From NCBI RefSeq assembly GCF_002706795.1, contig NZ_CP017705.1, forward strand, positions 4,935,501 through 4,999,500: a DNA stretch of 64,000 bases, given 5' to 3'. A model generated the notes under the pieces. The model ran no database searches and was not told where the DNA came from. It was given only the letters and a program-made list of their open reading frames with translations. Shown piece by piece: positions 8,397 through 54,652 of this stretch (positions are counted from its first letter, which is position 1; the number at the start of each line of letters is the position of its first letter). The position numbers were made by a program, and so were the translations under genes. The stretch is from Brevibacillus laterosporus DSM 25. GTDB taxonomy: Bacteria; Bacillota; Bacilli; Brevibacillales; Brevibacillaceae.

Positions 8397-9130
8397 CTAT
8401 CTTAAACGATCAGTAGAATGAGCAGAAACAGCATACGTTTCATCAATGATTTTCTGGACAATATGGCGTACTAATTTGGCATTCTCCTCAATCATTTCAG
8501 GGTCAAGCATCTCTTCATGAATTCCCTTTGCCTGATGTTCAGAATAGTTACTACGTGTAGCTTGTCTCCATGACAAGCAATTACCTTCTTCAGAATTTAA
8601 CTTTGTAGAGTCTTTCGCAATTAATTCATGAATATTAGCTTGAACTGAACCTGTATTTACAAGCTGATCCCGATACTTAGCGTATGAGTAAATTTTATGC
8701 GTAAATGTCGGTGTTACAAAATGCTTATACTGTTCAGGCATGTCTTCTAGTAGAGCATCGACTTGTTTTACTGCTTCATCCTCCGAGAATTCTGATGCCC
8801 CATTTCTTTTTATAGAGTCAAGCATGATGATATCCGATACCATATAGCCTTTTAACTCCATTGCTTTTGCTACTTCAAATGCCAGATTTCCTCCCAGCGA
8901 ATAACCTAGAAACACATATGGTTGTTTGTCCTGTACGTCAGTTACTATCTTTACATATTGTTCCATTAAATCCTCATCATTTGTATATTCATCGATGAAG
9001 TCAATACCGTATGTTACACAATGATTCTCAAGTAATTTCGCCAGCTCGATATAGGCCATGCCATGACCGATTGCGGGAGGGAAGCAGAACACATTTACGT
9101 GTCCATGCTCGTTTAATTTCATGATTGGGT
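8397..9130 (-). other. Type I thioesterase domain (macrolactonizing)
   Basis: An alpha/beta-hydrolase domain at the C-terminus of NRPS 2. The nucleophile elbow is GYSLGG (Ser3016); MLDS follows with the likely catalytic Asp, and the His is probably in KGIHEEM near the C-terminus. From the module order it would release the acyl-dodecapeptide by attack of the Thr9 hydroxyl on the Ser12 thioester, making a four-residue ring. Confidence 0.85.
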
Positions 9131-12100
9131 TTCTGTTATTTTTTTCGAATATGGGCCTTAAAATCTCTGGAGCCATTCCTTCAATCGTAGGCTTTTCAAA
9201 CACCACCCGAATTGGAATCTCCACTCGAATATTCATGTAGATCTTCCTGACTAATTCGAGTACGGTTAAAGAATGCCCGCCTAGCTCAAAGAAGTTATCT
9301 TTTCTACCTATTTTGGATACACCGAGTATTTCCTGCCATATCTCAACCAATTGAACTTCCATTGGTGTTTGCGGAGCTTCATACTCTACCCCTAGATGAA
9401 GCTTACCCTCTGGTGAAGGTAGTACTTTACGGTCGATTTTCCCATTTGAAGTCAAAGGGAATTGCTCAAGCTGTATAAAGTAGGATGGTATCATGTAAGT
9501 AGGTAAATCCTGTGATAGCGAACTTCTTAATTCGCTTACTGTAAGTTGCTGTTTTGCCACAAAATAAGCGCACAAATGCTTCTGACCGGTATGGTCCTCT
9601 CTTGCAGTCACCACAGCTTCATCAACAGAAGCTATTTTTAGAAGTAGCGCTTCGATTTCACCGAGCTCGATACGATAGCCTCGAATTTTTACCTGATGAT
9701 CAATTCTTCCCAAGTATTCAATGGTACCGTCTGGTAACCATCTAGCCATATCTCCTGTTTTATACATCGTTTTTCCGGCCGTAAACGGGTTCATCACAAA
9801 CTTCTCTGCTGTAAGCTCAGGACGATTTAAATATCCTCTCGCCAACCCCACTCCCGCTATACACAGCTCTCCCGCTACCCCAATCGGTTGGAGATTATTG
9901 GTTTCATTTTGGACAATGTAGAGCTGCGTATTAAAAATAGGCTTTCCTATTGGAACAATAGCGTGCTCTTGATCTGCATGGCAATCAAAATACGATACAT
10001 CAACAGTAGCCTCCGTCGGGCCGTACAAATTAGTTAGTTTCGCTTGATTCACCGTTGCAACAATTTGATTAAACTTTGTTACTTGCGAAGGGGTTAAGGC
10101 CTCTCCACTTGCAAATACCTGTCGCAGGCAATGAAGCTTATTCCTTACATCTTTTCTTGGACATTGCTCGATGTACTCCAAAAAAGCATGCAACATCGCT
10201 GGAACAAAATGCATAGTAGTTATGCCTTGCTTAGCTATCGTCTCAACGATTTGCTCAGGGTTCTTTTCCCCCCCGACCGCTAATAGGCATACTTTGGAAC
10301 CTACCATGGACCACCAAAACAGCTCCCAAACCGAAACATCAAACGTGATTGATGTTTTTTGCAAAATAATATCTGTTTCATCGATAGGGTATTGATTTTG
10401 CATCCACATGAGTCGATTAATAACAGAATGGTGCTCGACCATAACCCCTTTCGGCTTGCCTGTTGAACCAGATGTGTAGATGACATAGGCTACATCCCTC
10501 GAACTATTTACAGGTAAGAGATTAGTTTTGTCCTCGCTATACATTTGTTCATCTTGTAAATTAATTCGTTTCCCATCAAAAGGTATCCGATCACGTAAAT
10601 GATTTTGTAGCACTAATAACTTCATATTGGCATCCTTTAGCATGTAGCTGATACGTTCCTCAGGAAACCCTGGGTCGATCGGCACATAAGCACCGCCAGC
10701 TTTCAAAATTGCGAAGATTCCAATCAGCATCTCCAAGGAACGTTCAGCCATGATACCAACTAAATGGCCAGCTTGTACCCCCTCATTTCGCAAGGTTCTC
10801 GCCAATTGATTAGAACGTTCATTGAGCTCTCGATATGTCAGTTGACTATTTTCATAAATGACAGCTACTTGATCTGGCGTACGTTCCACCTGATTCTCAA
10901 ACATCTGATGGATTGTTCCCTCTTCGGCATAATCCGTTGTCGTATCATTAAATAACCCGAGAATTTGCTCTTTCTCTTGATTCGTTATGATTTGAAGAGA
11001 TGACAGTGGTGCATGTGGATCATTCACAATGGCCTCAATTAGTTGGACAAAATGCAGTCCCATTCGCTCCACTGTTTCTTTCTTATAAAGGGAAGTAGCA
11101 TATTCAATCAAGCATACGATTCTTTCGGATTCCTCCACCGCGTTCCAGGATAAATCAAACTTAGATACCGCATGGTTATTTTCGTACGGGGAAAGTTGCA
11201 ATCCTTCGATACTCAATTCTTCTTGCTCTACGTTCTTTAGCTCGAACATTGTATCAAACAGTGGATTCCGGCTCAAATCTCTATTGACATCTAGCTTATC
11301 TACTAGTTCTTCAAACGGATAATTCTGATTTTCATACGCTCCTAATGCCGTATCTTTCACTTCTTGCACAAATTCATAGAAGGATTTCTCACCCACTGGA
11401 TAGGTACGAATAGATAAAGTGTTGACAAACATACCGATAATTGGCTCTAAATCAGGATGAGATCTTCCAGCAATTGGCGTTCCAACAATCACATCTTCTT
11501 GACTTGTATATTTATGTAATAGTGTTGAATAAGCTGCTAGCAACACCATATACAAGGTGGAACCGGTTTGTGCTGCGATCTGCCTTAATCCATTTCTGCT
11601 TTTATGATCAATAATAAATTCTATCGTATCTCCCTCAAAGCTTTGCATGGCTGGACGGATATAATCGGTTGGCAAATCGAGTACAGGAATCTCCCCTTTG
11701 AAAACCTCAAGCCAATATGCTTCTTGTCGCTTCATTTCCTCACTCAGAACGCCTTCTCGTTGCCATACCGCATAATCTTTGTATTGAATACGAAGTGGAG
11801 ATAACTCTTCTCCTTTATACAAGCTAATAAATTCTTGTATCAAAATCCCTAAGGAGACACCATCTGAAATAATATGATGCATGTCAAACATCATAATATG
11901 ACGGTCCTTCGTTATTTCAATTAACCCAACTCGGAGTAATGGAGCCTGCTCAAGGTCGAACGTGCGAACAAAGTTTTGAATATGTCCCTTGACCTCTGCC
12001 ACATTCGCTTTGGTATACTCTATGGAAAACTCCACATTCTGGTGTATTCGCTGCATCGGTTCACCGTTGACGAGTTCAAAATTAGTTCGCAATGTTTCAT

Positions 12101-15100
12101 GACGCGAAATCAGCTTTCGGAAGACCATCTCTAATCGCTCTTTATCCAGTTCTCCTTCAATCTGAATCACATCCGGCATATTATAACTAATTTCTCCACC
12201 AGTGAGTTGACTCAAAATATACAACCGCTTCTGTGCAGAGGAAACTGGATAGTATTCTCTCTCATCAATAATTGGAATAGAAGTGAAAGCGATTTTTTCT
12301 CTTCCTTTTAATATCTCAGCCATTTGCTCAATAGTGGGATTTTGAAAAACATCTCGCAACGGAAAGTTTTGATTTAACTCTTTATAAATTTTAGCGACCA
12401 AATGGGTAGCACGCAGGGAATGTCCACCAATATCAAAGAAATTCTCCTTCACTCCGATTTTGGGAAGACCCAGAACCTCTTGCCAAATTTGCACAAGCTT
12501 CGATTCCATCCATGTACGGGCTGGAACATATTCTGCTCCCGAATGGATACTACTATCCTCTGGAGCAGGTAAAGCCTTACGATTAAGCTTCCCATTTGGT
12601 GTATGCGGCATTTTATCCAGCTGTATGAAGTAAGACGGTACCATGTAGTTTGGAAGTTGGTAAGCCAATTTAATTTTTAGCTCACTTATGGTCAACTGCT
12701 TTTCTACCACAATATAGGCGCATAAGTGTTGCACCCCAGCATGATCTTCCCGTGCGATGACCACCGCTTCTTGGATCTCTTCCATATTCCTTAGCTGTTC
12801 TTCTATTTCTCCAAGCTCAATACGATAGCCCCTCACCTTTACCTGATGATCGATTCGACCTAGATACTCAATCGTGCCATCAGGAAGCCATTTTGCCAAA
12901 TCACCTGTTTTATACATCTTACTACCTGGTATAAACGGGTTTTCTACAAACTTGTCGGTCGTTAATTCTGGACGATTCCAGTAGCCCCTTGCCAATCCCT
13001 TACCAGCGATACATAGCTCACCAGCTACCCCAATAGGTTGAGGATGACCATCAGTACTCAATATATAGAATTGTGTATTCATCAATGGCTTCCCGATTGT
13101 AACGGGCTGTCCCACTGCCACCTCCCCAATCGATGACCATACGGTTGTTTCAGTCGGACCATACATATTGTATAGGCACGCCGATGTATGCTCATGTAAA
13201 GCATTGACTAAAGAGATGGGAAGTGCTTCTCCGCCAAGCATAATTTCACGTACATCCTGTAAACATTTGACTTGATCCGTACCATCTACAGATGACAAAA
13301 GCATCTGCATACGAGAAGGCGTCATTTGAATCATATCGATTTGTTGCTCAGAAATTACATTTCTCAAAGCTTGTGAATCCGTCTGTTGATTTTCGCTAGC
13401 AAGTACGACTCTTACCCCTTTACTTAACGAGAGGAGCGTTTCTAACACAAAGATATCAAACGAAATTGTAGTAACACAAAGAAGAGATTTCCCTTCAGCA
13501 AAGTCAATCCGCTTCGTGATGCCATGTATCAGGTTGACAACCGCCTGATGAGTAATCATGACCCCTTTAGGTTTACCAGTCGAGCCTGATGTGTAAATGA
13601 CATAGGCTAAATCAGATGGGCTATTGCAGGGTTCAAGATTGGACGTATCCTTATGATAGGAAGCCTTCTCCTCCATAACGATGCATTTTCCATTAAATCC
13701 ATCGAAAATGATTTGATCTTGTAAATGACTATGCACAACTACGAACGTAGCTCCCGCATCCTCTAGCATGTAGCGGATTCGATCTTCTGGATAACTTGGA
13801 TCAATCGGTACGTAAGCCCCACCAGCCTTTAAGATGCCTAACAATCCAATTATCATATCAAGAGAACGCTCCACCAAAATACCGACTAGTTGATCTGACC
13901 TTATCCCTTCAGCTCGCAGGGTTCTTGCCAGTTGATTTGCTCGCTCGTTTACCTCACGATACGTCAGCTGTTCACCATCATAAACCACAGCTACTTGATC
14001 CGGTGTACGTTGGACCTGAGTCTCAAATAATTGGTGAATGGTTTGCTCCTCTACATCTTCCACTATCGTATTGTTAAACGTTTCGAGAATCAACGTCTTC
14101 TCTTGCATTGTCATCATCTCAATGGTGGACAGCTTAGCATGCGGATTACTCAAAAGCCCATCAATCAATTGTAAAAAGTGCTTCGCCATACGCTCGATTG
14201 TTTCTTTCTTGTATAGTGTTGTAGCATATTCGAAACTACACAGGATTGTATCTGCATCTTCCATTGCATGTAAGGTCAAATCAAACTTGGAAATCGTATG
14301 TTCACTTGCATATGGTGTGATACGCAGGCCTTCTAGTTCCTGCTCCTTACTTTCTAAATTTTGCAGTACAAACATCGTATCAAATAGTGGATTACGACTC
14401 ATATCCCTGTTTACATCCAGCTTATCTACCAGTTCTTCGAATAAATAGTCTTGATTCTCATACGCCTTCAGAGAAGTTTCTTTAACTTCTTGTAAATATT
14501 CGTAAAATGTTTTTTCGCCCCTTGGATAGTTGCGTATCGCCAGTGTGTTTACAAACATACCAATCATGCTTTCTAGATCTGCATGAGGTCTTCCCGCTAT
14601 CGGAGTTCCAACAATAATATCTTCTTGTCCACTATATTTGCCAAGTAGCGTCGTGTAGATAGTTAGTAACACCATATATAAGGTCGACCCTGTTTGGGAT
14701 GCCAGCTGTTTTAATTCCTCACTTGTTTGTTTGTCGATTCTAAACTCCAGAAGATTTCCTTCAAAGCTTCTCACAGCTGGGCGGGTATAATCTGTAGGAA
14801 GTTGAATGACAGGCAGTTCACCGGAAAATGCTTGGAGCCAATAATTCTCTTGTTGCTGGTACCACTCACTTTTTATCTGTTGCTGTTGCCAAGAAGCATA
14901 ATCTTTGTACTGAATCCGTTGCTTAGGCAATACCTCTCCCTCGTACAATCTAGCAAACTCCTGAATAAGAACGCTCATGGAGGTTCCATCAGAGATGATA
15001 TGATGCATGTCAAACAATAAGATATGGCGTTCTTGGGCAAGTTCGACAAGTCCCACCCGTAACAACGGAGCACTTTGTAGATCAAACATTCTTGTAAAAT

Positions 15101-17945: not shown

Positions 17946-18022
17946 TCCAACTTTTTATTCACATATGAACGTAAACAATCGCGAGGTGTCATACTACCAC
18001 ATCCACACCCCTTCTCGAATTC

Positions 18023-18051
18023 GCAAAAAATGAATGAGTGCAAAAAATGAA
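18023..18051. repeat. Direct repeat of GCAAAAAATGAA in the NRPS intercistronic gap
   Basis: The 12-mer occurs at 18023-18034 and 18040-18051. On the minus strand the copies supply two TTTTTT runs just downstream of the intercistronic hairpin. Confidence 0.6.
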
Positions 18052-18055
18052 GGGT

Positions 18056-18092
18056 GAGCGTGTGCTATAGAACTCGCCTATAGCACACGCTC
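18056..18092 (-). promoter_or_regulatory. Perfect 15-bp hairpin between the two NRPS genes (possible partial terminator or processing site)
   Basis: Left arm 18056-18070 (GAGCGTGTGCTATAG) and right arm 18078-18092 are perfectly complementary, with a 7-nt loop. It begins 20 nt after the NRPS 1 stop. On the minus strand the first T6 run starts about 8 nt after the stem, later than in an ideal intrinsic terminator, so read-through into NRPS 2 is expected. I find no convincing promoter between hairpin and NRPS 2. Confidence 0.7.
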
Positions 18093-18112
18093 GTAAAAAT
18101 ATTCTTTTTTCC

Positions 18113-49400: not shown

Positions 49401-52400
49401 GCGACTTGATTCATTTGGGCAACCAGTGTCTTAGTAAGCACCTTAGTCAACTTCTTAGCAGAGTAGCCCTCTCTGTTCTGGGGCTTCTCTTTTGGCAAGA
49501 GAGCTTGACTCTCGTAGTCTACCAAAAAATTGCTCCAATATTTGATTGTATCCTCTTGATTTTGACGCTCTAACCAATCGATGTACTGGCTATATGGCGT
49601 TACGTCCTCCAACTCAGGTTGTCTTTTTTGCAGAATAGCAGAGTAGCCCTCAAACACTTCTTTAGTCATTATTGGCAAGCACCAGCCATCCATCACAATA
49701 TGATGGAAGCTCCAAATGAAATGATAGGTTTCTGCTGTTGTACGTAAAATCGAAACACGCATCAGAGAATCTTCAGCCAAGTCAAATCCTCTTGCTTTGT
49801 CCTTGCTGGTAAAGGTAGTCAGGTACAACTCACGATCTACCTCGTCCAATTCGCGCAAATCTTCATAGTATAGCTCACTGCTCTTTTGTCGATAAACGAC
49901 CTGAACAGGATCGTCTTTCCATCCACTATAGAAGTTGGTTCTCAATGTTGCATGTCTTTGTGTGAGGGAATCCAGACTTTTACCAAAAGTAATGACATCA
50001 AAGCTTCCCTGTATTTCAAACGTTAATTGTTCAAAATACGCCCCTGACTGTGAATCCATCAGGTTGTGGAACAGCATACCTTTCTGCATCGGTGTCAAGG
50101 AGTAAATATTCTCAATCTCGCCAATATGCTTCGTTTGTGCAACAAACCGGTCAAATTCCTCAACAGTCAGTCCTTTTAACAACAGATCGCTTGGCGTTAA
50201 TTCTACCTGTTCTTTCGCTACGCAGTGTGCAATCACCTGATGTAGGCTTACACGTAATAGTTCCCCTAATCGCTCCATTGTTTCTTTGCGATATTCAGTG
50301 GCGCTGTAACTAATTGTAAGTTTTAACGATCCACCAGTGACCATTGCATTTAAGTCAAGTGTATATTTCCTCGCTGCCTGTCCACTTACAAATGCTCCAC
50401 TTGAATGATTCGACAGTTGCAGAGCATTATGCTGTAAATCCTGATCAAATTGACCTAAATAGTTAAAACTGATCTCAGGCTCTGCTCTGCCTATGTCTCT
50501 ATCTTCAGAGTCGGTTAAGTAGCGTAAAATACCATAACCAATCCCCTTATGTGGAATTTGACGCATCATTTCTTTGACTAGTTTAATCCGTTGAGAGACA
50601 TCTTGATCTATTCCTATCTGAAGAACAACAGGATACATGCTTGTAAACCAACCTACTGTACGGGTAACGTCAATATCTTGAATAATGGATTCACGACCGT
50701 GTCCCTCTACATTCACCAGCACTTTCTCTGTACCAGTCCAATCGTGTATAGCCATTCCCAAAGCTGTAAGCAATAAATCGTTAACCTCTGTGTTGTAGGC
50801 TCGGTTTGCTTGTTTTAGCAACTGCTCTGTTTCCTGCTCCGTCCACTGTACTGCTACGATTTGACTTTCTCCAACAACTGACTGTTCTTGGATAAAATCC
50901 TTTGGCAAATCTGTCTTATCTATTTGTTCAATCTGTTGCCAGTATGATACTTCGTTTTGTAATTCCTCGCTGTCTGCATAAAGAGATAGTTGCTCGGCCC
51001 ACGTTTGGAAGGAATCCGTTTTCTGTGGGAGACTAATTGCTTCACCTTTTAGGGCTTGTTCATAGCCACTCGCGATATCTTCGAATAAAATTCGCCACGA
51101 AACTCCATCTACCGCCAAATGGTGAATGACAATCAGTAGGTGATCCCCTTCTTGACATTGGAACAGTCCCAATTTGAGAAATGGACCTTCTGTCAGAGAA
51201 ATGCTACTTTGAATTTCATTTACTTTTGTCTCTATCGTTTGGGTGCAGTCTGTTTCATCTCTCAAATCTATTACTTCAAGACTATAAAGCTCACCCTCTC
51301 CTACTCCTCGATGCCAAGTCTCATATCCATTACCTGTTTCACGAACTACCATTCGTAATGCATCATGATGAATGGCAATCTTTTGTATGACTGAGCGAAG
51401 TACTGTTTCATCAAAACCTTTATTCATGAAAAGCATGAAAGCTTGGTTATAATGATGTTGTTCAACTAGTTTTTGTTCAAAGAACCAATGCTGAATCGGG
51501 GTCAGTAAGGTAGCCCCCACTACCTCACCCTGGTCAGCAATTTTCGTAATAAGCTGAATATGTCGACCCAATTGTGCAATGGTTGGATAGCTGAACAAAT
51601 CCTTCATTTCCAGCTTAAAGCCTGCCTGAAGCATCCTTGAAGAGATCTGGATAGACTTAATGGAGTCTCCTCCCAGATCAAAGAAATTATCTAATACACT
51701 AATTTTCTTAGCTCCTAATACAGCCTGCCAAATAGATACCAATGTCTGTTCCATAGCAGTGCGAGGTGCTACATATTCTACACCCGTTTGGATACTCTCC
51801 TCTGGTGCTGGTAGCATTTTACGATCAATCTTGCCATTTGGAGACAGTGGCATTTTATCCAATTGTACAAAATAGGATGGAACCATATACGTAGGTAGCT
51901 CTTGTGAAAGTTCGGCTCTTAGCTCGCTTACAGTCAATTGCTTGTTTGCTACGAAATACGCGCACAATTGCTTCTGACCGTGTGCATCTTCTCTAGCGAC
52001 TACCACTGCTTCTTCTATTGCTTCCATTTTCAATAACTGTATTTCGACTTCGCCAAGCTCAATACGGTAGCCACGGATTTTTACTTGGTGATCAATTCGA
52101 CCCACATATTCCATATTTCCATCTGGCAACCATCTCGCAAGATCACCTGTTCGATACATTCTTTCCCCAGGTCTAAAGGGGTTTTCTATAAATTTTTCCG
52201 CGGTTAGCTCAGGTCGATGTAAATAGCCTCTGGCCACCCCATCCCCAGCAATGTACATCTCTCCAATGAAGCCAATTGGCACTGGCTGCAAAGCTGTATC
52301 TAATAGATAGATCCTTACATTGTCGGCGGGTACACCAATTGGTACAGAGTTTTGTGAAGTATTATTCGGATCAAATACATAGAGCATGCAGCCTACTACT

Positions 52401-54652
52401 GTTTCCGTAGGTCCATATTCATTCATAATTTGGACATTCCCACCGAAATTACGATCTATTTTGCTAGCGAGCTGCGTATGTAAGCTTTCGCCACCAACAA
52501 TAAATCTTCTAACATTACTGTTCGTACCATCGAATTCTTCGATTAGTTTTAGATGTGTAGGGGTTAGTTTTATGATTCCAACTTTATTATCTGTAAGAAT
52601 GTCTTGAATAACCTGTACCTTGTCTTCCCCACTATAAATGTAGATCGTATTCCCAGAAACAAGAGGGGTAAATATAGACGTGACGGTCAAATCAAACGAA
52701 ATGGACGAATAAAGTGGGAAATGAACAGTCTCATTTTGTACATACACTTTTCTAGCCCACCAAATATAATTGACAAGCCCCTGATGAGTGATCATAGCTC
52801 CCTTCGGATTTCCAGTGGAACCTGAGGTATAAATGATATAAGCTAGATCATACATGTCGTTTATATGTTCAAGATTGGCAGTACTTCCCTGATATAGCTC
52901 TTGATTGTCTAAGTAAAAAATCTCTTTGTTAAAAGTACATTTAGTAGAAAATTTTTGCTGCGTTAGCAAAATAGTTGTTTGACTATCCTCTAGTAAATAC
53001 TGAATTCGATCTTCTGGATAATCAGGATCAATTGGTAAATAGGTAGCTCCGGCTTTTAAAATGGCGAGAATCCCTACAACCAATTCCAAGGAATGCTCTG
53101 CCATAATGGAAACAACACTATCAGCAGTAACCCCTTTCTCTCTTAAAAAATACGCTAGTTGATTGGAGGTTTCATTTAATTCCTGATAAGTGAGTTGTTC
53201 CCCTTCCCAAATGACAGCCACTTGCTCTGGTGTACGTGCTGCTTGTTCCTCAAACAGTTGATGAATCAGTTTTTCACGTGGATAGTCCGCTTGAGTGTTA
53301 TTACATACTGATAAAATATAATTCTTCTCTTCTTCTCGAAGCAACGAGATGTCCGCAATTTTTGAAGTAGGATGATGAATGATTGTTTCAATAATGATAA
53401 AGAACTGTTGAACTAGTTGTTCCATCTCCTCTTCTGTAAACAACTCTGCTCGATAATTTAGTTGAAACAGAATCTTATGATCGTCTAATTCAATAACATT
53501 CATTTCAAAGTCATTTATGACGTCTCCACAAAAATTCTCGTCAACCTCAATTCCAACATTTTCATACTGCGAATAATTCATGGCGCGGTACTGTACGGAA
53601 GCACCAAAAAGACGTTGCAGGTCCTTATGCTGATGTGTTTGTCGCAAGTCTTCCATCATTCGATTGTATGGGAATCTTTGATGGCGTAGGATCGAAACCT
53701 GCTCTTTTGATACAACTTGTAAAAGGGAAGATAAGTCCATGTCAGGATCTACGTATACTCGTGTTGGCACTGTACTAACAAACATTCCTAACATTTCTTT
53801 TTCCTTTTTGGTAGTTCTGTTCGCATAGAATGTACCAATTGAAACATCGTTCTGTGTTGTCTTTTTATGCATATAGATGTACAACGCAGTCATAAAGACT
53901 GTAAGCATACTATTCTTAGTCTGTTTACAAAATTCGTACAGGTTATGATACAAGCTATCTTCTAAGATTATATTTTTTCTTTTTCCAGCTGTGCTTAAGG
54001 TAAAAGGATTATATGATTTAAACCCTATCACTTCAGGTAAGGTGCTAAATTTATCCACCCAATACGTTTTATCCTTTTGATAGCGGTCTGATTCCTCATA
54101 GTCTTGCTCCGTTTGTATAAAGTCGAAATAAGAATGATTCTCTGCTATTTCTGGAAGCTGGCCACTAGCAATCTGGGAATAGTATTCGTTTGCTTGATTA
54201 ATGAACATTCTTGCAGAGATACCATCGCAAACAATATGATGAATTTTGACATTGTACCAATATTCTTGGTCGCTAATCTTGCAAATGACAAATTGATACA
54301 AATCTGAATGTAAAAGTTCAAACGGTGTACGACTGTGCTGATCCAACCATTTTAGTGCCTGAGCTTCCCTATCAACTCCAGAAAAATCAAAACATTCGAA
54401 TGTTTTGTCGCTATACTCCTCCAGATATTGTTGTGGATACCCATTCTGGGCTGTTATTTTAATCCGAAAGACATCGTGCCGGCAAATAATCATATTTAAA
54501 GCTTGTTGCAAGGCACTCAGATTAATATTGCCTTTCATTTTAATTGTCAATGAAATCGTCGACACACCCGTGTTTGGATAAAGTAACTCAGAGTACCAAA
54601 TCCTTTGTTGAGGCTGAGTCAACGGAAATAATTGAATCAAGTCCTTATTCAT
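18113..54652 (-). CDS. NRPS 1: modules 1-9 plus condensation domain of module 10 (lipo-initiation to Thr9), brevicidine-type
   Basis: One uninterrupted frame of 12,179 residues, roughly 1.4 MDa. Approximate domain starts: Cstart 1, A1 455, T1 Ser 996, E1 1045; module 2 at 1512; module 3 at 3019; module 4 at 4534; module 5 at 6052; module 6 at 7098; module 7 at 8132; module 8 at 9644; module 9 at 10688; final C domain 11729-12179. Modules 1-4 and 7 are C-A-T-E; modules 5, 6, 8, 9 are C-A-T. All C and E domains keep HHxxxDG. C domains after E modules are of the DCL type (LTPMQKGM start), the others of the LCL type (PVSSAQKRL start), so stereochemistry and order agree throughout. Codes give Asn, Tyr/Phe, Trp, Orn, Orn, Gly, Orn, Trp, Thr. 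GAGGTG sits 7 nt before the ATG. Confidence 0.96.
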   Translation of the reverse strand: MNKDLIQLFPLTQPQQRIWYSELLYPNTGVSTISLTIKMKGNINLSALQQALNMIICRHDVFRIKITAQNGYPQQYLEEYSDKTFECFDFSGVDREAQALKWLDQHSRTPFELLHSDLYQFVICKISDQEYWYNVKIHHIVCDGISARMFINQANEYYSQIASGQLPEIAENHSYFDFIQTEQDYEESDRYQKDKTYWVDKFSTLPEVIGFKSYNPFTLSTAGKRKNIILEDSLYHNLYEFCKQTKNSMLTVFMTALYIYMHKKTTQNDVSIGTFYANRTTKKEKEMLGMFVSTVPTRVYVDPDMDLSSLLQVVSKEQVSILRHQRFPYNRMMEDLRQTHQHKDLQRLFGASVQYRAMNYSQYENVGIEVDENFCGDVINDFEMNVIELDDHKILFQLNYRAELFTEEEMEQLVQQFFIIIETIIHHPTSKIADISLLREEEKNYILSVCNNTQADYPREKLIHQLFEEQAARTPEQVAVIWEGEQLTYQELNETSNQLAYFLREKGVTADSVVSIMAEHSLELVVGILAILKAGATYLPIDPDYPEDRIQYLLEDSQTTILLTQQKFSTKCTFNKEIFYLDNQELYQGSTANLEHINDMYDLAYIIYTSGSTGNPKGAMITHQGLVNYIWWARKVYVQNETVHFPLYSSISFDLTVTSIFTPLVSGNTIYIYSGEDKVQVIQDILTDNKVGIIKLTPTHLKLIEEFDGTNSNVRRFIVGGESLHTQLASKIDRNFGGNVQIMNEYGPTETVVGCMLYVFDPNNTSQNSVPIGVPADNVRIYLLDTALQPVPIGFIGEMYIAGDGVARGYLHRPELTAEKFIENPFRPGERMYRTGDLARWLPDGNMEYVGRIDHQVKIRGYRIELGEVEIQLLKMEAIEEAVVVAREDAHGQKQLCAYFVANKQLTVSELRAELSQELPTYMVPSYFVQLDKMPLSPNGKIDRKMLPAPEESIQTGVEYVAPRTAMEQTLVSIWQAVLGAKKISVLDNFFDLGGDSIKSIQISSRMLQAGFKLEMKDLFSYPTIAQLGRHIQLITKIADQGEVVGATLLTPIQHWFFEQKLVEQHHYNQAFMLFMNKGFDETVLRSVIQKIAIHHDALRMVVRETGNGYETWHRGVGEGELYSLEVIDLRDETDCTQTIETKVNEIQSSISLTEGPFLKLGLFQCQEGDHLLIVIHHLAVDGVSWRILFEDIASGYEQALKGEAISLPQKTDSFQTWAEQLSLYADSEELQNEVSYWQQIEQIDKTDLPKDFIQEQSVVGESQIVAVQWTEQETEQLLKQANRAYNTEVNDLLLTALGMAIHDWTGTEKVLVNVEGHGRESIIQDIDVTRTVGWFTSMYPVVLQIGIDQDVSQRIKLVKEMMRQIPHKGIGYGILRYLTDSEDRDIGRAEPEISFNYLGQFDQDLQHNALQLSNHSSGAFVSGQAARKYTLDLNAMVTGGSLKLTISYSATEYRKETMERLGELLRVSLHQVIAHCVAKEQVELTPSDLLLKGLTVEEFDRFVAQTKHIGEIENIYSLTPMQKGMLFHNLMDSQSGAYFEQLTFEIQGSFDVITFGKSLDSLTQRHATLRTNFYSGWKDDPVQVVYRQKSSELYYEDLRELDEVDRELYLTTFTSKDKARGFDLAEDSLMRVSILRTTAETYHFIWSFHHIVMDGWCLPIMTKEVFEGYSAILQKRQPELEDVTPYSQYIDWLERQNQEDTIKYWSNFLVDYESQALLPKEKPQNREGYSAKKLTKVLTKTLVAQMNQVAKQHQVTINTFMQTAWGILLQKYNGNQDVVFGSVVSGRSADIPGIEGIIGLFINTIPVRIRCEGEETLGEVLRKVQEQALESHAHDTHPLYDIQGLTTQKQDLINHIMVFENYPVEHEMGQLGIGKQANFTIVDVKVTEQTNYDFNIAVVPGEEMKLLLDYNAHVYDEAGIERIVMHFVHMLEQIIENPHARVNELEVVTPIEKAQLLDVFNDTQATYPSEKTVYQLFEEHVERTPDQVAVVYEEKQLTYRELNAKANQLARTLRAEGVQANDLVGIMVERSLEMIIGIFGILKAGGAYVPIDPDYPEERIRYMLEDSGAKLLLIQSHLQEHIAFDGTLLMLDDEIVYSADDTNVEPITGPNDLAYVIYTSGTTGKPKGVMVEHHGLCNLQTYFEYNLGLSAGDRTVQFASMSFDAACAEFFKAFICGGTLYIPSTSVIMNYRLFEDYITTNQITVAALPPTYAIYLEPSNMPSLKTLITAGSASSIELVQKWKDHVSYFNAYGPTEDTICSSVWSYDRESMSEKVVPIGRPLKNHRIYIVDADGHLLPIGVPGELCIAGVGLARGYLNRPELTEEKFVNSRFREGERMYRTGDLARWMSDGTIEYLGRIDHQVKIRGYRIELGEVEAQLLKIDSVQEAIVIAREDEAGQKHLSAYFVAETQLSMAELRSELSHELPTYMIPTYFVQLEQMPLTSNGKIDRKELPAPEENMHTGVEYIAPRTEMEQLLVSIWKTVLGSQQIGIMNNFFDLGGDSIKAIQVSSRLLQSGYKLEMKDLFTYPTVEKLSPQLQLISKIADQGEVKGQIDLTPIQRWFFEQMPVESHHFNQAYMLYRKQGFKESALREVMQKLASHHDALRMVFNQTESGYEARNRGVDEGDLYTLEVFDFKEKADCSKLIEKKANEIQSSININEGPLLKLGLFHCSDGDHLLIVIHHLVVDGISWRILFEDLATGYEQIMNGVAIQLPQKTDSFQTWAEQLSFYANSEAMEREQKYWQQIEQIEMPLLPKDSPQAKKLVRDSEIVTVQWTEQETEQLLKQANRAYGTEVNDLLLTALGMTIHAWTGMEQVFVNLEGHGREAIIEDIDITRTVGWFTSQYPVVVEIQADKNLSQKIKTIKEGLRQIPNKGIGYGILRYLSTLQDNLIFKLEPEISFNYLGQFDQDYQNNEMQLSSYSVGDVVSEQLEMKTALNINGMISNGRLEMSIRYSSKEYKKETMEEVAMLLQASLQNVITHCVTRKRTELTPSDVLLADLSIEELDQIVEQTQETGEVENVYELTPMQKGMYFHSLMNPHSGAYFEQTTFDMTGSFDINAFAKSLDAWVQRHEALRTNFYNGLKDQPVQVVYRYKKGELYYEDLREMDTATRQSYVATYTSEDKAKGFDLAKDSLIRVSILRTEEETYHFIWSFHHMVMDGWCVSIMVKEVFGGYIAIRENRQPEYAALTPYSHYIEWLGRQDRESAASYWSEYLAGYEQQTLLINDNKQGKEDNADGYAATKLNYTFSKELTKRLDQTAKQNQVTINTLMQTAWGIMLQKYNNHHDAVFGSVVSGRPADIPGVENILGLFINTIPVRIRCEADETAVQVMRRIQEQALASNAFDTYPLYDIQALTEQKQDLINHIMVFENYPMEQQIEELGSTGQSKFAIGNIDTVEQTNYDLNLIIMPGEELGICYGYNTLVYDETSIEQIQGHFVHIVEQIASNPQLHVSELELVTATEKEQILSVFNDTKEIYPQDIMLHQLFECQVERTPDQMAIVCEEEKLTYRELNERANQLARTLRKQGIKSDQLIGIMAERSLEMIVGMLGILKAGGAYVPIDPEYPEERISFMLEDAQAALLLTQRHLQDRVSFTGTILLLDEETSYQTEASNLEPIHGPQDLAYVIYTSGTTGKPKGVMVEHASIVNTILWKADSYQFSTEDRVLMVTPFVFDPFLTHLFGPLVSGSTVYVLRDEESKDPEAIKTAITQHQMTHFQSSPSFLWAIVETMKPQDLQSVKNIAVGGEKIVASLVKKVAELNPNIEICNEYGPTESSVVTTSLSITKPEQELSIGRPIANKRVYIVDQHNQLQPVGVAGELCIAGAGLARGYLHLPELSREKFVENPFAQEEKMYKTGDLARWLPDGTIEYLGRIDHQVKIRGYRIELGEVEAHLLRIDSVQEAIVIAREEQEGQKHLCAYFVADKQLTVGEIRSVMSQELPSFMIPAFFMQIEQMPLTTNGKIDRKALPAPEGGVQTGVEYVEPRTPVEQTLVSIWQAVLGSQQIGILENFLDLGGDSIKAIQVSSRLLQAGYKLEIKDLFKYPTVAQLSPHLQLVSKIADQREVVGATKLTPIHHWLFEQKSAEPHHFNQAVTLYQKQGFDEVVLRQVIQKIVEHHDVLRMVFRETGDGYEAWNRGVDEGELYNLEIIDLRNVIELAQVIEAKANEIQSSINITEGPLMKLGLFKCSDGDHLLIVIHHLAVDGVSWRILFEDIAAGYEQALNGQEIRLPQKTDSFQTWAEQLSHYANGQTMDAERAYWNQIEQIKMIPLPKDQIQKESLVRDGEIVTIRWTEQETEQLLKQANRAYNTEVNDLLLTALGMAIHAWTGTEQVVVNLEGHGRESILPDVDISRTVGWFTSQFPVVMETGTNKNIAQQIKTVKEGLRQIPQKGIGYGILRYLSEPKDGITFKAEPEITFNYLGQFDQDLQRNDMQFSPYSSGAAVSQDKERRYTLDMNGLISGGVLELTIGYNGKEYQQETIKHVADLLRSSLQEVIRHCVAKERTELTPSDILLKGLTVEELERLVEDTQQIGEIENVYPLTPMQKGMYFHSLMNPSSGAYFEQTTFDLIGSFDVVAFGKSLDLLTQRHVALRTNFYDGWKDLPVQVAYRNKRSELYYEDLRQMDKEKRDAYLTAFAVEDKAKGFDLAQDSLIRISILRTGEEAYHLIWSFHHIVMDGWCLSLMTKEVFGSYFAIRGNRQPELGDVTPYSNYIEWLAQQDDAEASDYWSNYLTGYDQQTLLPKGKTLHKSEGYVASKLTRQLGKELTERLHQVAKQAQVTINTLVQSAWGVTLQKYNDSQDVVFGSVVSGRPTEIPGIENIIGLFINTVPVRIRCAKEESFADVMIRGQEQALASQAFDTYPLYDIQRLTAQKQDLINHIVVFENYPMGEQIEQLGDGDGESFEIANIEIMEQTNYDFNLSIIPGENLDVCSEYNEVVYDQDSIQQILGHFVHILEQIADNPQILVNDLELITEREKTEILEVFNDTDMPYPRTLTIQQLFEAQVESAPDQVAVVYEGSQLTYRELNEKANQLARTLRTAGVHADQLIGIMVERSVEMIVGILGILKAGAAYVPIDPEYPEERISYMLEDAGAKLLVTQTHLQERVAFTGRIVMLDDTAAYSNDDSNLEPIQAPNHLAYVIYTSGTTGKPKGVMIEHQQLTAMAHAWKVAYGLDEERPKVLQWASFSFDVFTGDYVRSLLHGGTLIICPSHSRLEPASIYELIREHKVSIFESTPAISIPLMDYVYDNQLDVLSLKTLIIGSDQCPPDAFANLITRFGSHMRILNSYGVTEACIDSSFFEQTDSLLVMNIPIGKPLPNVKMYVLHENNVMQPIGVPGELYIAGSGVGRGYLNRPELTAEKFVENPFVSGERMYRTGDLVRWLPNGNIEYLGRIDHQVKIRGNRIELGEVETQLLKIAKIKENVVVAQEDQAGRKYLCAYFVAEQKLSSSELRGALSQVLPSFMVPSYFMQMEQLPLTPNGKIDRKALPIPEGNVENEIEYVGPRTAVERILVSIWEAVLGTKAIGIMDNFFDLGGDSIKSIQVSSRLLQAGFKLEMKDLFRYPTIAELSKHIHSVTRIADQGEVLGESLLTPIQRWFFEQSYADPDHYNQAMMLYRTEGFNETALHKVMDKITEHHDALRMVIRASEGEYKAWYRGVGEGESYSLEVFDFKGIANCAQAIEEKANQLQASINLSEGPLLRLGLFRCEDGDHLLIVIHHLVVDGVSWRILFEDIASGYEQAVKGEVVRFPYKTDSFRTWAEQLSQYANSEKIELEREYWQQIDQTKATPLPKDNRQVTSLMKDVESVTVHWTAQETEQLLKQANRAYNTEVNDLLLAALSLALHSWTGMERVLVNMEGHGREAILSDVDITRTVGWFTSQYPVLLQMNAGKQLTTLIKTVKEGLRQIPQKGIGYGILRYLSDGHQEHTFTAEPEISFNYLGQFDQDLQNNAIELSPYSKGSDMSANATMQYAMDMNGMISNGALSMTIHYSGKEYHRETMEQFSKLLQESLREVIEHCVSKERTELTPSDVLLRGLTVEELEQIEVQTRHIGQIENIYAMTPMQKGMWFHSLMDPQSGAYFEQTTFDVLGRFDATVFGQSLQMLFQRHEIFRTNFYNGWKDQPVQVVYQNRTHALHYEDLLGMDEVERELYMQDFIQKDRETGFDLSQDTLLRLSILRTGTEEYRVIWSSHHILMDGWCLSLVAQEVFESYFAILQNREPKLAEVPPYSAYIEWLQRQDTQEASTYWSSYLAGYDQQTTVPKEKVQRKENPVFDHRFCDLGRELTAQMNGLARQHQVTIYTLMQTVWGLMLQKYNGSQDAVFGSVVSGRPADIPDVESMIGLFINTIPIRVRLEAGDTFTEVMKRSQEHALASHAYDTYPLYEIQALSEQKQDLINHIMVFENYPMEQQMEQVGGNDPDAFKIANVSIVEQTNYDFNLNVLPGEEIRVHIEYNATVFDQTGIDRILEHFVHMLQQVVKDPYVPINQLELVTAEEKAQILLGSHNIVADYQEEKTVQQLFESQVKRTPNQVAIVCEGEQLTYRELNERANQLARTLRSKGIQADQLVGIMVERSAEMMVGILGILKAGAAYVPIDPEYPEERISYMLEDAKADLLVTQSHLQDRVSFTGSMVMLDDSEAYSENASNLEPIQDPNHLAYVIYTSGTTGKPKGVMIEHKQLTAMSNAWKLAYGLHEQNPKVLQWASFAFDVFTGDYVRALLNGGELVICPSHARLDPASIYELISRHQVTIFESTPAIAIPLMDYVYENKLDIHTLKTLIVGSDQCPVEAFAQLLSRFGDHMRILNSYGVTEACIDSSFYEQTNSLLSLNLPIGKPLPNVKMYILDENRAIQPVGIPGELYISGIGVGRGYLNRPELTAEKFVDSPFDDNERMYRTGDLVRWLTDGNIEYVGRIDDQVKIRGNRIELGEIEAQLLKVHSIEEVVVIAQEDSGGQKQLCAYFVADKHLTVSDLRATLVQELPGYMIPSYFVQLEELPLTPNGKIDRKALPAPEGSLQTGVEHVAPRTALEASLAQIWEEVLGISNIGIKDNFFEVGGHSLRATTLVAKIHKELGINVALRDVFSSPTIEQMAAGITDMESEATYASVPIAEQRDFYPVSSAQKRLYILGQMEGGELNYNMPSVLLVEGPLNRTFLEEAFRKLIERHEALRTGFEMINGMPIQRVYQDVKFEVEYAQATEAEAENLIRAFVRAFDLEKVPLLRVGLIELGINRHLLLFDIHHIVSDGASSSILIQEFVQLYKGEELPPLRIQYKDYAVWQQEEVQSKQMEKQEKYWLDVFHGEIPVLDMPTDFVRPAVQTYQGDTFEFFIDEQRSKGLKQIAAQTGSTLFMVLLASYSAMLHKYSGQEDVIIGTPIAGRPHADLENLIGMFVNTLAIRTQPAGEKSFYDFVQEVKEHALKAFENQEYPFEELVEKLQVARDFSRNPLFDTMFIMQNVENEELAIEGLKFTPYADEHGVAKFDLTLNAMEEAEGIRCGMEYATSLYKRETIERMAEHFLQVIDGIISDPREKLAILEMITAKEKAFILETLNDTAAEYPREQTIHQLFEDQVARTPEQVAVVYEGQQLTFRELNERANQLARTLRAEGVQPDQLVGIMVERSLEMMVGLLGILKAGGAYVPIDPEYPEERIRYMLEDAGAKLVVMQNQLHDRLAFVERRISLDEEASYHQDRSNLDVLGSSNDLAYVIYTSGSTGKPKGVMLQHQSVVNLIQGITDRIDFAQGKSLLSVTTISFDIFVLETFLALSKGVRVVLASEDQQTDPQALSDVIVEQQIDMIQMTPSRMQMLLSSDHLECLQQLHVIMLGGEALPASLLEMLRRNTSARLYNMYGPTETTVWSSVADVTGEEQITIGKPLVNTRFYLLSAEGQAQPIGVAGELCIAGEGLARGYWNRPELTEEMFVENPLVPGERIYKTGDLAKWLPDGTIEYLGRIDHQVKIRGHRIELGEVETQLLQVGSVQEAVVIARGDQEGQQQLCAYFVAEQQLTVHDLKAQLSQGLPSYMVPSYFVQLEQMPLTPNGKIDRKALPAPEGGILTGSEYVAPRTWMEAKLVQIWQEVLGLETIGIRDNFFEIGGHSLRATNLVAKIYKEINKNLPLRDAFQYPTIEQMAKVIEGMEQSTYTSIPVIEERDFYPVSSAQKRLYILSQFTGGEISYNMPDIVMIEGSLDQQRVKEAFQKLIERHDTLRTSFEMVNGEPVQRVHQSVDFTISYVQASLEEAEEHVRGFIREFDLQKAPLLRVGLIETEPDRYLLLFDMHHIISDGVSMGVLIQEFARLYAKEELSPLRIQYKDYAAWQQAGVNSEKMKQQEAYWLDVFRGEIPVLDLPTDYVRPALQSFAGETIEFVIEENDREGLKKLAAQTGSTLHMVMLAAYTTLLHKYTGQEDVIVGTPIAGRPHADLEDMIGVFLNTLALRNYPSKDKSFYEYLQEVKVSALKAYENQDYPFEELVEKLKVSRDLSRNPLFDTMFEFINLEQGALEMEGLRVQPYPSENTVAKFDLTLEAIEREEGIVCTLEYATSLFKRETVERIAGHFKQIISAIVQNPQATLESLEMITSIEKGTILEVFNATNIDYAREKTIQLLFEEQVERTPDQVAVVHEGDQVTYRELNERANQLARTLRAEGVQADQLVGIMVDRSVEMMVGILGILKAGGAYVPIDPEYPEERISYMLEDAEAKLLVMQSHLVERVSFTGKLVMLDDPDTYHQDGTNLQTASTPDHLAYVIYTSGTTGKPKGVMIEHKQVTSIAAAWNKAYRLEEDSVRLLQWASFSFDVFTGDYVRALLHGGKLVICPSQSRLDPVRIYGLMKEYGITIFESTPAIVIPLMEYVYENSLDIRSLKTLIVGSDQCPSDAFAQLVSRFGSQMRILNSYGVTEACIDSSYFEQVTTVPAFSLPIGKPLPNVKMYVLNENHAILPIGVLGELYIGGNGVGRGYLNRPELTAEKFVDNPFVSGEKMYRTGDLARWLSDGNMEYVGRIDHQVKIRGNRIELGEVETKLLKTPFMQEAIVVAKENEAGVKQLCAYFVATKALTLSELRSTLSQELPGYMIPTYFVQLDEMPLTPNGKIDRKALPAPEGSMQTGADYVAPRTSIEKTLVSIWQAVLGTDAIGIMDKFFDLGGDSIKSIQVSSRLFQAGYKLEMKDLFQYPTIAELSKRVQSITRMADQGEVVGEVELTPIQRWFFEQAYTEQHHYNQSVMLFKEQGFDEGALRKVMQKIAEHHDVVRTVYTPTESGYKARNRGIEEGELYSLEVVDFRDVSDGAKAVEAKASEMQRSIDISEGPLMKLGLFHCANGDHLLIILHHLVVDGVSWRILFEDIATGYEQAQNGEEICFPHKTDSFHMWAHQLALYANSDAMDREREYWQQLEQIPKTPLPKDNVQATSIMKDSQSIMVHWTAEETEQLLKQANRAYNTEVNDLLLTALGMAIHSWTGIEQIHVNLEGHGRESIISDMDITRTVGWFTSQYPVVLEIHEGKHVSQQIKSVKEGLRHIPQKGIGYGIHRYLSERNEGTSFTEPEISFNYLGQFDQDLQNNDIQLSPYASGAETSPNASMPFTLDMNGLISEGALTIEMNYSGKEYQRETMEQLAELLQASLREVVTHCVAKERPELTPSDVLLRGLTVEELEQIVEQTSRVGEVENIYAMTPMQKGMWFHSLMDPQSGAYFEQTTFDISGNFHAEIFETSLRMLFQRHEIFRTNFYNGWKEQPLQVVYREKDSSLHYEDLMAMHVEERNAYVNSFIKKDRETGFELSQDALMRVSVLRIGKEDYKIIWSSHHILMDGWCLSLVASEVFECYFAILQHRAPQLAEVSPYSAYIEWLERQDSREAASYWSTYLAGYDQQTMVPKAKSPGKEAEQIFRTSFCDVDKELTAQMNTLARQHQVTINTLMQTVWGMMLQKYNGTDDVVFGSVVSGRPADIRDVENMIGLFINTIPVRIHCEGTISFSELLKQNQEKALASHAYDTHPLYEIQALTEQKQDLINHIMVFENYPVEEQMEQVGKDDETAFEVTNVKMVEQTNYDFNLIVIPGEEIRIHVEYNAAMYDQAGVERILGHFVHVMQQVINNPAIALNTVELVTHQEKEQIVEEFNHTAVAYPQEYMIHQLFEQQAKLTPDQLAIVYQDKQITYLELNERANQLARTLRMKGVHADQLVAIMAERSTEMIVGMLGILKAGGAYVPIDPEYPEDRIRYMLEDAGAKLVVTQQHLQEYLSFFATDRLVLLDDSASYQEESSNLEPIHGQNDLAYVIYTSGTTGKPKGVMVEHTSIANTIHWKANAYGFTRNHRVLMVTPFVFDPFLTHLFGPLISGSTVYLLPDGESKDPVAIKNAITEQSITHLQSSPSFLWSIVDTMSPKDLKSVKNIVVGGEKIVSALVNRVMEMNPHIEICNEYGPTESSVVTTSLSITNAEQELSIGCPIANKQVYIVGAHNQLQPIGVAGELCIAGSGLARGYLHLPDLTAEKFVDNPFVAGERMYRTGDLARWLPNGKIEYLGRMDHQVKIRGYRIELGEVEAQIMNLAPIQEAIVIVKEGEAGQNQLCAYFVSEDQLRVSELKKALGQVLPEFMVPSYFVQLEQMPLTPNGKIDRKALPEPEESIQTGNEYVAPRTAVEATLASIWQEVLGLSTVGVKENFFDVGGHSLRATTLVAKIHKEMDVAVPLRDIFKYPTIEQLAQLIASMEQITYASIPVIEEREYYLVSSAQKRLYILSHLEGGELSYNMPGIMMVEGSLDKERVEAAFQRLTQRHESLRTGFELVNGEPMQRVHDGVSFKLEYWETSLEEAEPIIEGFVRSFDLKQAPLLRVGLLAVDVNQYILLFDMHHIISDGVSMGVLMQEFVQLYRGEELSPLRIQYKDYVAWQQAGIHSEWMSKQEAYWMDVFAGEIPVLDMPIDYQRPASRSFEGEAVEFVINKQRSEGLKKLAADNESTLYMVLLAVYTTLLSKQSGQEDIIVGTPIAARPHADLESIIGMFVNTLAIRNYPEADKSFLAYLQEVKDSSLQAFENQDYPFEELVEKLDVKRDLSRNPLFDTMFVLQNTEQGDLFIEGLQLKPYGEQPVVAKFDLTLNAEELEDSIVCSFDFASSLYKRETIERLVEHFMQVIDSVLANPEEQLSSIEMITSNEKTTILETFNDSQADYPREKAIHQLFEEQVALVPDHIAVVYEGEQLSYRELNEKANRLARSLVAQGVQADGLVGIMAERSLDMVVGMLAILKAGGAYVPIDPEYPEERIAYMLEDSNVNLLLLQSHLLGRVAFDKKVILLDDEQSYQTDHSNLELRSGPRHLAYVIYTSGTTGKPKGTLIEHKNVVRLLFNSKNLFDFSNSDTWTLFHSFCFDFSVWEMYGALLYGGKLVIVPPLTAKSPKQFLQLLQDQQVTILNQTPTYFYQLLQEEANDNRKELAIRNVIFGGEALSPALLKDWKAKYPQIKLINMYGITETTVHVTYKEITEAEISQAKSNIGKTIPTLSAYILDEHLRLQPVGVKGELYIAGEGLARGYLNRPELTNDRFVSNPFVPGERMYKTGDLARWLADGNIEYLGRIDHQVKIRGYRIELGEVETQLLNIESVQEAIVIAHEDQSGEKYLCSYFVADSELTVSELRRALSQQLPDYMIPAYFVQLERMPLTANGKLDRKALPTPEESLKTGREYVAPRTQVEEKLAQIWQEVLGLSQVGITENFFEIGGHSLRATTLVAKIHQVLDTSITLRDVFQIPTIEQMADRIANTEKHAYISIPLAEEKDYYPVSSAQKRLYILSHVEGGELSYNMPGVMTIEGQLDWMKLETAFRQLINRHETLRTGFEMVDGEVVQRISKDVEFTVEKIQAREEEVDAHINGFVRKFDLQHAPLIRVGLIEIEPDRHILLYDMHHIISDGVSMNILMQEVTELYEGKELSPLRLQYKDYAVWQQQRAKSELYEQQENYWFGEFFGPLPVLDLMIAYPRPAVRSFEGAEYEFVIDRALADQVNQLAENSGSTLYMLLMATYTILLSKYSGQEDIIVGTPVAGRLSAELEPLIGMFVNTLAIRNYPQKDKTFHGYLEEVKERTLQAFENQEYPLEELVEKLNVKRDASRNPLFDTMFVMQNTEDQEATIGSLSVTPYVQDHTVAKFDLTLSISTEEGEIRGAFEYCTKLFNKNMIEQLANDFVRILSEVVSTPDKKLGEFDLVENSASNHDLVESIQFDF
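19472..22593 (-). other. Module 9: C-A-T, predicted Thr9
   Basis: LCL condensation domain, adenylation code DFWNIGMVH (the standard threonine code), carrier GGHSLRAT. Its side-chain hydroxyl is the expected lactone nucleophile. Confidence 0.94.
22594..25724 (-). other. Module 8: C-A-T, predicted Trp8
   Basis: DCL condensation domain following E7 (HHILMDG), adenylation code DPTQVGEVV, carrier GGHSLRAT. The code by itself is unusual; Trp is assigned because module 3 has almost the same code and both positions are Trp in brevicidine. Confidence 0.8.
25725..30259 (-). other. Module 7: C-A-T-E, predicted D-Orn7
   Basis: LCL condensation domain after Gly6, adenylation code DVGEIGSID (the ornithine code known from bacitracin synthetase), carrier GGDSIKS, and an epimerization domain with HHLVVDGVSWR. 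Confidence 0.93.
30260..33362 (-). other. Module 6: C-A-T, predicted Gly6
   Basis: LCL condensation domain, adenylation code DILQMGMVW (glycine), carrier GGHSLRAT, no epimerization domain. Confidence 0.92.
33363..36498 (-). other. Module 5: C-A-T, predicted L-Orn5
   Basis: DCL condensation domain (HHILMDG) accepting the D-Orn4 chain, adenylation code DVGEIGSID (ornithine), carrier GGHSLRAT. Lack of an epimerization domain makes this the only L-ornithine of the three. Confidence 0.93.
36499..41053 (-). other. Module 4: C-A-T-E, predicted D-Orn4
   Basis: DCL condensation domain, adenylation code DVGEIGSID (ornithine), carrier GGDSIKS, epimerization domain with HHLVVDGVSWR. Confidence 0.93.
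41054..45597 (-). other. Module 3: C-A-T-E, predicted D-Trp3
   Basis: DCL condensation domain (HHIVMDG or HHMVMDG type), adenylation code DPTQAGEVV, carrier GGDSIKA, epimerization domain with HHLAVDGVSWR. Trp is inferred from the pair with module 8 and the match to brevicidine. Confidence 0.8.
45598..50118 (-). other. Module 2: C-A-T-E, predicted D-aromatic residue (Tyr or Phe)
   Basis: DCL condensation domain, adenylation code DAAAIAAIC, carrier GGDSIKA, epimerization domain with HHLVVDGISWR. The code is close to the GrsA phenylalanine code DAWTIAAIC, so Phe, Tyr or both may be taken; Tyr is expected for brevicidine itself. Confidence 0.85.
50119..54652 (-). other. Module 1: Cstarter-A-T-E, predicted N-acyl-D-Asn1
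   Basis: The first condensation domain begins with the QRIWY-type sequence of lipo-initiating domains (as in surfactin synthetase) and has HHIVCDG, so it should transfer a fatty acyl group from acyl-CoA. Adenylation code DLTKIGEVG is the asparagine code. Carrier GGDSIKS and an epimerization domain (HHLAVDGVSWR) follow. Confidence 0.92.

Follow-up and report, generated by a model that had tools for sequence, protein, structure and literature searches.

The brevicidine cluster of the Brevibacillus laterosporus group as a probable mosaic: exchanged adenylation cores and a conserved half condensation domain

Genes at the locus

The window (i.e. the whole stretch of 64,000 nucleotides from B. laterosporus DSM 25 that was analysed) belongs to a genome of 5.4 Mb in a single contig. 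It holds a set of two ABC transporter genes, two non-ribosomal peptide synthetase (NRPS) genes and one efflux gene:

57001-58797, minus strand: ABC transporter with ATPase (PF00664 and PF00005), 88% identity to relatives
55196-56986, minus strand: ABC transporter with ATPase (PF00664 and PF00005), 88-89% identity to relatives
18113-54652, minus strand: NRPS protein 1 (BreC type), 12179 aa, with modules 1-9, a complete condensation domain of module 10 (C10) and epimerization (E) domains in modules 1, 2, 3, 4 and 7
8397-17945, minus strand: NRPS protein 2, 3182 aa, with a half condensation (C) domain, modules 10-12 and a thioesterase
6747-8198, plus strand: EmrB-type MFS efflux gene (TIGR00711 above cut-off), 96% identity to relatives

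The original prediction had placed the two NRPS reading frames at these coordinates, and the ORF list of the window has both there. The layout is the same as that published for relacidine (rlcA-E), for which the available text of PMC7818431 gives two ABC genes and the drug resistance transporter rlcE. The two ABC genes would be the pair corresponding to rlcA/rlcB, and the EmrB-type gene the likely counterpart of rlcE.

Module architecture

The adenylation (A) codes, extracted by an alignment anchored on module 2, are DLTKIGEVG, DAAAIAAIC, DPTQAGEVV, DVGEIGSID, DVGEIGSID and DILQMGMVW for modules 1-6, and DVGEIGSID, DPTQVGEVV, DFWNIGMVH, DGFYLGVVF, DILQMGMVW and DVWHFSLVD for modules 7-12, in all twelve cases equal to those read earlier. 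The layout of module 2 is taken to follow the numbering of GrsA, and the assignment of residues to the twelve codes partly follows general knowledge of such codes. The carrier domains have the GG[HD]S motif in 12 of 12 modules, and the A10 lysine is present in every one of the twelve A domains. Condensation-type HHxxxDG motifs also number twelve, ten of them in protein 1 and the other two in protein 2. The restriction of E domains to modules 1, 2, 3, 4 and 7 was borne out: protein 1 carries the HHxxxDxxSW motif exactly five times, once in each of these modules, and in protein 2 both full C motifs belong to the C type. As had also been claimed, a single thioesterase ends the line, with PF00975 at the C-terminus of protein 2, after module 12. 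Completeness was covered with Pfam for three domains, C1, C10 and the E domain that belongs to module 1, and each gave a near-full condensation profile; the remaining C and E domains were located by motif. The two ends of the line are:

53293-54652, minus strand: C1, probable lipo-initiating (starter) condensation domain (PF00668)
8397-9299, minus strand: end of the last carrier domain and thioesterase (PF00975, PF00550)

C1 is only 22-23% identical to the other C domains, and in a sequence search with it a TycC domain ranks first, followed by starter-C structures in second and third place. The starter-C match 7c1l is titled as a starter domain and has the same sequence as 7c1k, and 7c1h is presumably a starter C domain as well. 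Given this low identity and the starter-C structures in the search, C1 is probably lipo-initiating.

Comparison with laterocidine-type relatives

Five genomes of the genus (own included) were compared, two of which, G003 and G004 (B. laterosporus MSSRFCCT15), also carry the line. Judged by their codes, both have 13 modules with Ser1, Asn11, Gly12 and Gly13, i.e. they are of the laterocidine type. Protein 1 is 87.4-87.6% identical to its counterparts over about 12190 columns, which puts this reading of the line far beyond chance, and protein 2 is 72% identical. The start of protein 2 has no match in G001 and only distant ones in G002 (E <= 1e-15, best 1.1e-19). The guess that the organism is B. 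laterosporus or a relative fits, with MSSRFCCT15 in the same genus and 87% identity at the start of protein 2.

In a domain table based on motif patterns, which caught 39 domains in the window and 41 in each relative (i.e. without T3 and T10 of the window and without T3, T10 and T12 of the relatives), the positional counterpart is the best match for 34 of the 39 window domains, at 80-96% identity. The exceptions are A1, A11, C12, A12 and T12. A1 is 79% identical to the laterocidine-type A11 and 52-53% to A1, A11 is 82-83% identical to the laterocidine-type A12, and A12 has 70-71% identity to A1 of the relatives. C12 matches C12 of the relatives at 69-70%, hardly above its paralogs (67%), and T12 matches their T13 at 80%, their own T12 being absent from the table. 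The thioesterase (8397-9299) is 66% identical to that of the laterocidine-type lines, which is below every tabulated domain except the exchanged A cores; this low identity may be linked to the ring having four residues instead of five.

Identity of the product

The brevicidine sequence given with the prediction is that of Li et al. 2018 (PMC6095874, available text), and both its residue order and its D-positions equal those predicted from the window. The structures of brevicidine and brevicidineB in the available texts of PMC8943889 and PMC8219939 fit as well. In addition, the third A-domain code of BreC (ATY37608.1) is printed in the PARAS paper as DPTQAGEVVK (PMC13126170, in the part available), with which module 3 of the window agrees in all nine letters extracted, its A10 lysine being present. 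The corresponding code in both G003 and G004 is DPTQVGEVV, with V where BreC-A3 has A. With the brevicidine cluster of B. laterosporus DSM 25 (MIBiG BGC0001536, cited in the available text of PMC10111413) the window shares the residue order, the D-positions, the 12 modules and the BreC-A3 code; no difference was found, the comparison at protein level being that of this one code. The brevicidine system is already known, and the view that the line is known rather than new holds, since the 12 modules, the codes and the E positions all equal those of published brevicidine. Of the further statement that the line is fully colinear with brevicidine, the module order, codes and E positions stand; it passes over the half C domain and the fact that modules 1, 11 and 12 are of mosaic origin.

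The nearest other products are relacidine, which has Ser1 and ends in Gly11-Ser12-Gly/Ala13, and laterocidine, which shares its linear part and ends in Asn11-Gly12-Gly13 (PMC10111413 and PMC7818431, in the parts available). The window has Asn1, Gly11 and Ser12, and no module 13. Compared by its published description, the relacidine cluster of B. laterosporus MG64 (rlcA-E) has in common with the window the gene set, the E positions and residues 2-12, but it has Ser1 and a 13th module (Gly/Ala), both of which the window lacks. The laterocidine-type lines of G003 and G004 share the half C domain and the split point between the two proteins, and the window differs from them at each of Ser1, Asn11, Gly12, Gly13 and the number of modules. 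The close likeness of those 34 domains would by itself allow a 13-residue peptide of the laterocidine or relacidine type, but such a peptide needs Ser1 and a 13th residue, and with the codes and the module count ruling this out it is extremely improbable as the product. A different matter is whether module 2 is relaxed, leading to a mixture with brevicidineB (Phe2), which is quite conceivable though somewhat less likely than not. Its code DAAAIAAIC, which we take to be of a broad aromatic type, has been counted in favour of such a mixture. In the available text of PMC8219939, DSM 25 makes both the Tyr2 and the Phe2 form. The mixture would nevertheless come from the same known cluster, not from another one, and the code is silent on the ratio.

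It is almost certain, as far as sequence can tell, that the window holds the brevicidine cluster of the B. laterosporus group, in which the line is a mosaic and the Asn core of module 1 has a recent common ancestor with that of a loloatin/tyrocidine-type synthetase. In protein 1, the probable starter condensation domain would put a fatty acyl group on Asn1, after which residues 2-9 would be added. Protein 2 would then add Ile10, Gly11 and Ser12, and its thioesterase would free the peptide with the C-terminus closed onto Thr9 as a lactone. The two ABC transporters and the MFS pump probably export brevicidine and protect the producer. Loading, lactone closure and export rest on the published product and on what is known of these protein families, whereas the order of modules, the codes and the epimerization positions can be read in the window itself. 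For brevicidine, a lead against drug-resistant Gram-negative bacteria, confirmation of the cluster is routine; what is added is a natural example of residue change within the family, with A cores swapped between conserved motifs and the neighbouring domains kept, together with a partner for the Asn core elsewhere in the genome and, at the junction of the subunits, a half condensation domain that is conserved.

Exchange of adenylation cores in modules 1, 11 and 12

Sliding windows showed abrupt changes of identity near what we take to be motifs A1/A2 and A7/A8. A mosaic test with two breakpoints was applied, in which donor-like and recipient-like informative DNA sites were counted (given here as donor-like:recipient-like) and compared with permutations. 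The core coordinates were derived by hand from the breakpoints:

52112-53198, minus strand: Asn adenylation core of module 1, loloatin-type signal; 476:26 inside, 51:483 outside, 0/2000 permutations
12828-13795, minus strand: Gly adenylation core of module 11, like laterocidine-type module 12; 358:42 inside, 84:188 outside, 0/2000
9713-10847, minus strand: Ser adenylation core of module 12, distantly like laterocidine-type module 1; 265:102 inside, 105:322 outside, 0/2000

For module 1, the recipient was module 1 of G003 and the donor the loloatin-type Asn module of the own genome; with module 11 of G004 as the donor, the counts were 377:35 inside and 72:473 outside (0/2000 permutations). For module 11, recipient and donor were modules 11 and 12 of G004, and the Gly core is 85-86% identical to module 12 of the relatives. 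For module 12, they were modules 13 and 1 of G004, respectively. Its Ser core has no close partner in the five genomes, the best match elsewhere being 71-72%. When module 12 was treated as a hybrid of modules 12 and 13 of G004, the contrast was weak (190:83 inside, 148:135 outside, 2/2000). Six control modules (2, 3, 4, 6, 7 and 8) with the loloatin donor gave 77, 83, 50, 10, 159 and 94 of 500 permutations, respectively, i.e. a weak signal in module 6 (10/500); the controls exclude modules 5, 9 and 10.

On these results, modules 1, 11 and 12 differ from the laterocidine-type lines by an exchange of their A cores, with conserved motifs of the A domain as the borders. In modules 1 and 11 the C and T domains did not move with the core, nor did the E domain in module 1. 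Recombination of A cores in NRPS evolution, in which the C-A linker, Asub and T are kept, is described in the main text of Baunach et al. 2021 (PMC8097286); as in the window, the exchange there lies inside the A core and neighbouring parts are kept. The word 'Brevibacillus' has 0 occurrences in that main text, and the brevicidine case would be a new instance of a mechanism already described there for NRPS generally. Together with the junction discussed below, the core swap suggests testable cut points for engineering analogues.

The Asn core and the loloatin/tyrocidine-type synthetase

Apart from the module 1 core itself, the sequence most like it in the five genomes compared lies in the window's own genome, 173 kb away (G000:C1:4813270-4814229), at 94% protein identity. 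The locus around it (G000:C1:4794000-4833999) has ORFs of 1077, 3593 and 6490 aa which, judged by the codes read, comprise 1, 3 and 6 modules. We take these codes to stand for aromatic, Pro, aromatic, aromatic, Asn, Asp, Tyr, Val, Orn and Leu, and the name loloatin was presumed from the order Asn-Asp-Tyr-Val-Orn-Leu. This loloatin/tyrocidine-type synthetase (about 4.796-4.830 Mb) is a separate line of 10 modules.

Over a core of 297 codons, module 1 and the loloatin-type Asn core have 93.7% DNA identity and a dS of 0.164. By comparison, five genes that lie in the cluster or next to it have a dS of 0.46-0.76 between the window and its relatives, and that of the loloatin Asn core itself between species is 0.61-0.68. 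The pair is interrupted by one short feature, the coordinates of which were set by hand:

52844-52942, minus strand: 33-codon patch inside the module 1 core, closer in DNA to the laterocidine-type A11 (84%) than to the loloatin core (73%)

Without the patch, the identity of the pair rises to 96.3% and dS falls to 0.128. As the dS of the pair is below that of the species split, it is well supported that module 1 and the loloatin-type line exchanged their Asn core after that split. A loloatin-type signal is also present in the core of module 11 of G004 (369:29 inside, 70:492 outside; 0/2000). The A11 cores differ from the loloatin cores of the relatives by a dS of 0.86-1.07, versus 0.48-0.53 from the loloatin core of the window's genome; being farther from the former, they do not appear to be recent copies within those genomes. 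In trees with an outgroup of 12 family cores (from ORFs of 6325-6518 aa, chosen by size and similarity), the six Asn cores of the laterosporus group form one clade (100/100). Inside it, the DNA tree joins module 1 with loloatin (27/60) and the protein tree joins module 1 with the laterocidine-type A11 (84.8/72), with support of 27-85 for the branches among the three kinds of Asn core.

As regards the direction of the exchange, of the sites with a conserved outgroup, 8 join the pair to the laterocidine-type A11 and 6 to the loloatin cores in the relatives, and the distances are similar both ways, which would agree with the brevicidine core having overwritten the loloatin core. That this happened, and not the reverse, is nevertheless the less likely case: similar cores (71-74%) occur in ORFs of 6325-6518 aa, i.e. 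of TycC size, in 12 other family genomes, and position 1 is Ser in both relatives. These two points make a TycC-type module the most likely first source of the Asn core in the lipopeptide line.

The junction between the two NRPS proteins

Around the boundary of the two proteins, the arrangement is as follows:

18113-19492, minus strand: end of protein 1 with the complete C10 (PF00668, profile positions 2-449 of 456)
17946-18112, minus strand: intergenic gap with the hairpin GAGCGTGTG...CACACGCTC, outer arms conserved in G003 and G004
17223-17942, minus strand: start of protein 2, lone C-terminal half of a condensation domain (PF00668, profile positions 187-456 of 456)

In the gap, a pattern scan called no terminator or promoter. 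A terminator between the two NRPS genes was considered and rejected: the scan gave 0, and the stem, for all the conservation of its arms, is separated from the T run by several bases. A split of the gene through a frameshifted or broken C10 was likewise rejected, as C10 is complete and both the gap and the start are the same in G003 and G004. In both relatives, the start of protein 2 has an aligned ATG directly followed by TAA and then a TTG, which aligns with position 17936 of the window. With a stop behind the ATG, the start in the relatives is probably the TTG, and that of protein 2 in the window may accordingly be the TTG at 17936 rather than the GTG at 17945.

The half C domain has about 240 residues and precedes A10; it also matches the corresponding part of the TycC C domain. 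An AlphaFold model, made with an alignment of 12 sequences (three half domains and nine paralogous C domains), has a pLDDT of 82.6 and reaches a TM-score of up to 0.84 (on the query) against solved condensation domains. Of 39 family genomes, only three had the half domain at E <= 1e-35, namely the own one, G003 and G004, and a gene-order search of the same 39 genomes gave no further loci. A search of contigs returned 3 loci, one at 87% and two of Paenibacillus at 23-28% identity. Neither the half C domain nor the brevicidine A-core exchange was found described in the available texts on truncated or partial condensation domains and on the evolution of the family.

Present in 3 of the 3 clusters seen, at 87% identity, and under purifying selection with a dN/dS of 0.11-0.13 that is in the range of the intact domains compared (0.05-0.16), the half C domain is probably kept for function. 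It could be argued that it is a decaying leftover instead, because it lacks the half with HHxxxDG, a complete C10 is already there, and its dN/dS exceeds that of the corresponding half of C10 (0.05-0.06) roughly twofold; its conservation in every cluster seen and its place inside the intact range make such a loss of function unlikely. As the catalytic half is missing, the role of a functional half domain is most likely structural or one of docking. More tentatively, lines of this family would be divided within module 10 at a special junction, where C10 might dock on the half C domain, which would then be a structural platform before A10 replacing the usual docking parts; with the core exchange, this would make for natural subunit splitting plus specificity change. 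If both hold, the family would show that subunits can be split and specificities changed without functional loss.

Neighbouring genes

Outside the cluster, a GNAT gene (59532-60071, minus strand) resembles AAC(6') aminoglycoside acetyltransferases, with 184.5 bits well below the best cut-off of 400; the list of ORFs of at least 150 aa in G003 has none at the matching place. On the other side, the gene for a formate dehydrogenase alpha subunit (2964-5918, minus strand; TIGR01591) lies beside a DUF1641 protein, both being ordinary neighbours, and is 96% identical in the relatives (881 aa of it inside the G003 stretch). Positions 60899-63998 (minus strand) hold an RNase_H_2 protein and a second large ORF that leaves the window at its edge, and at the place matching this region both relatives have an ORF of 760 aa.
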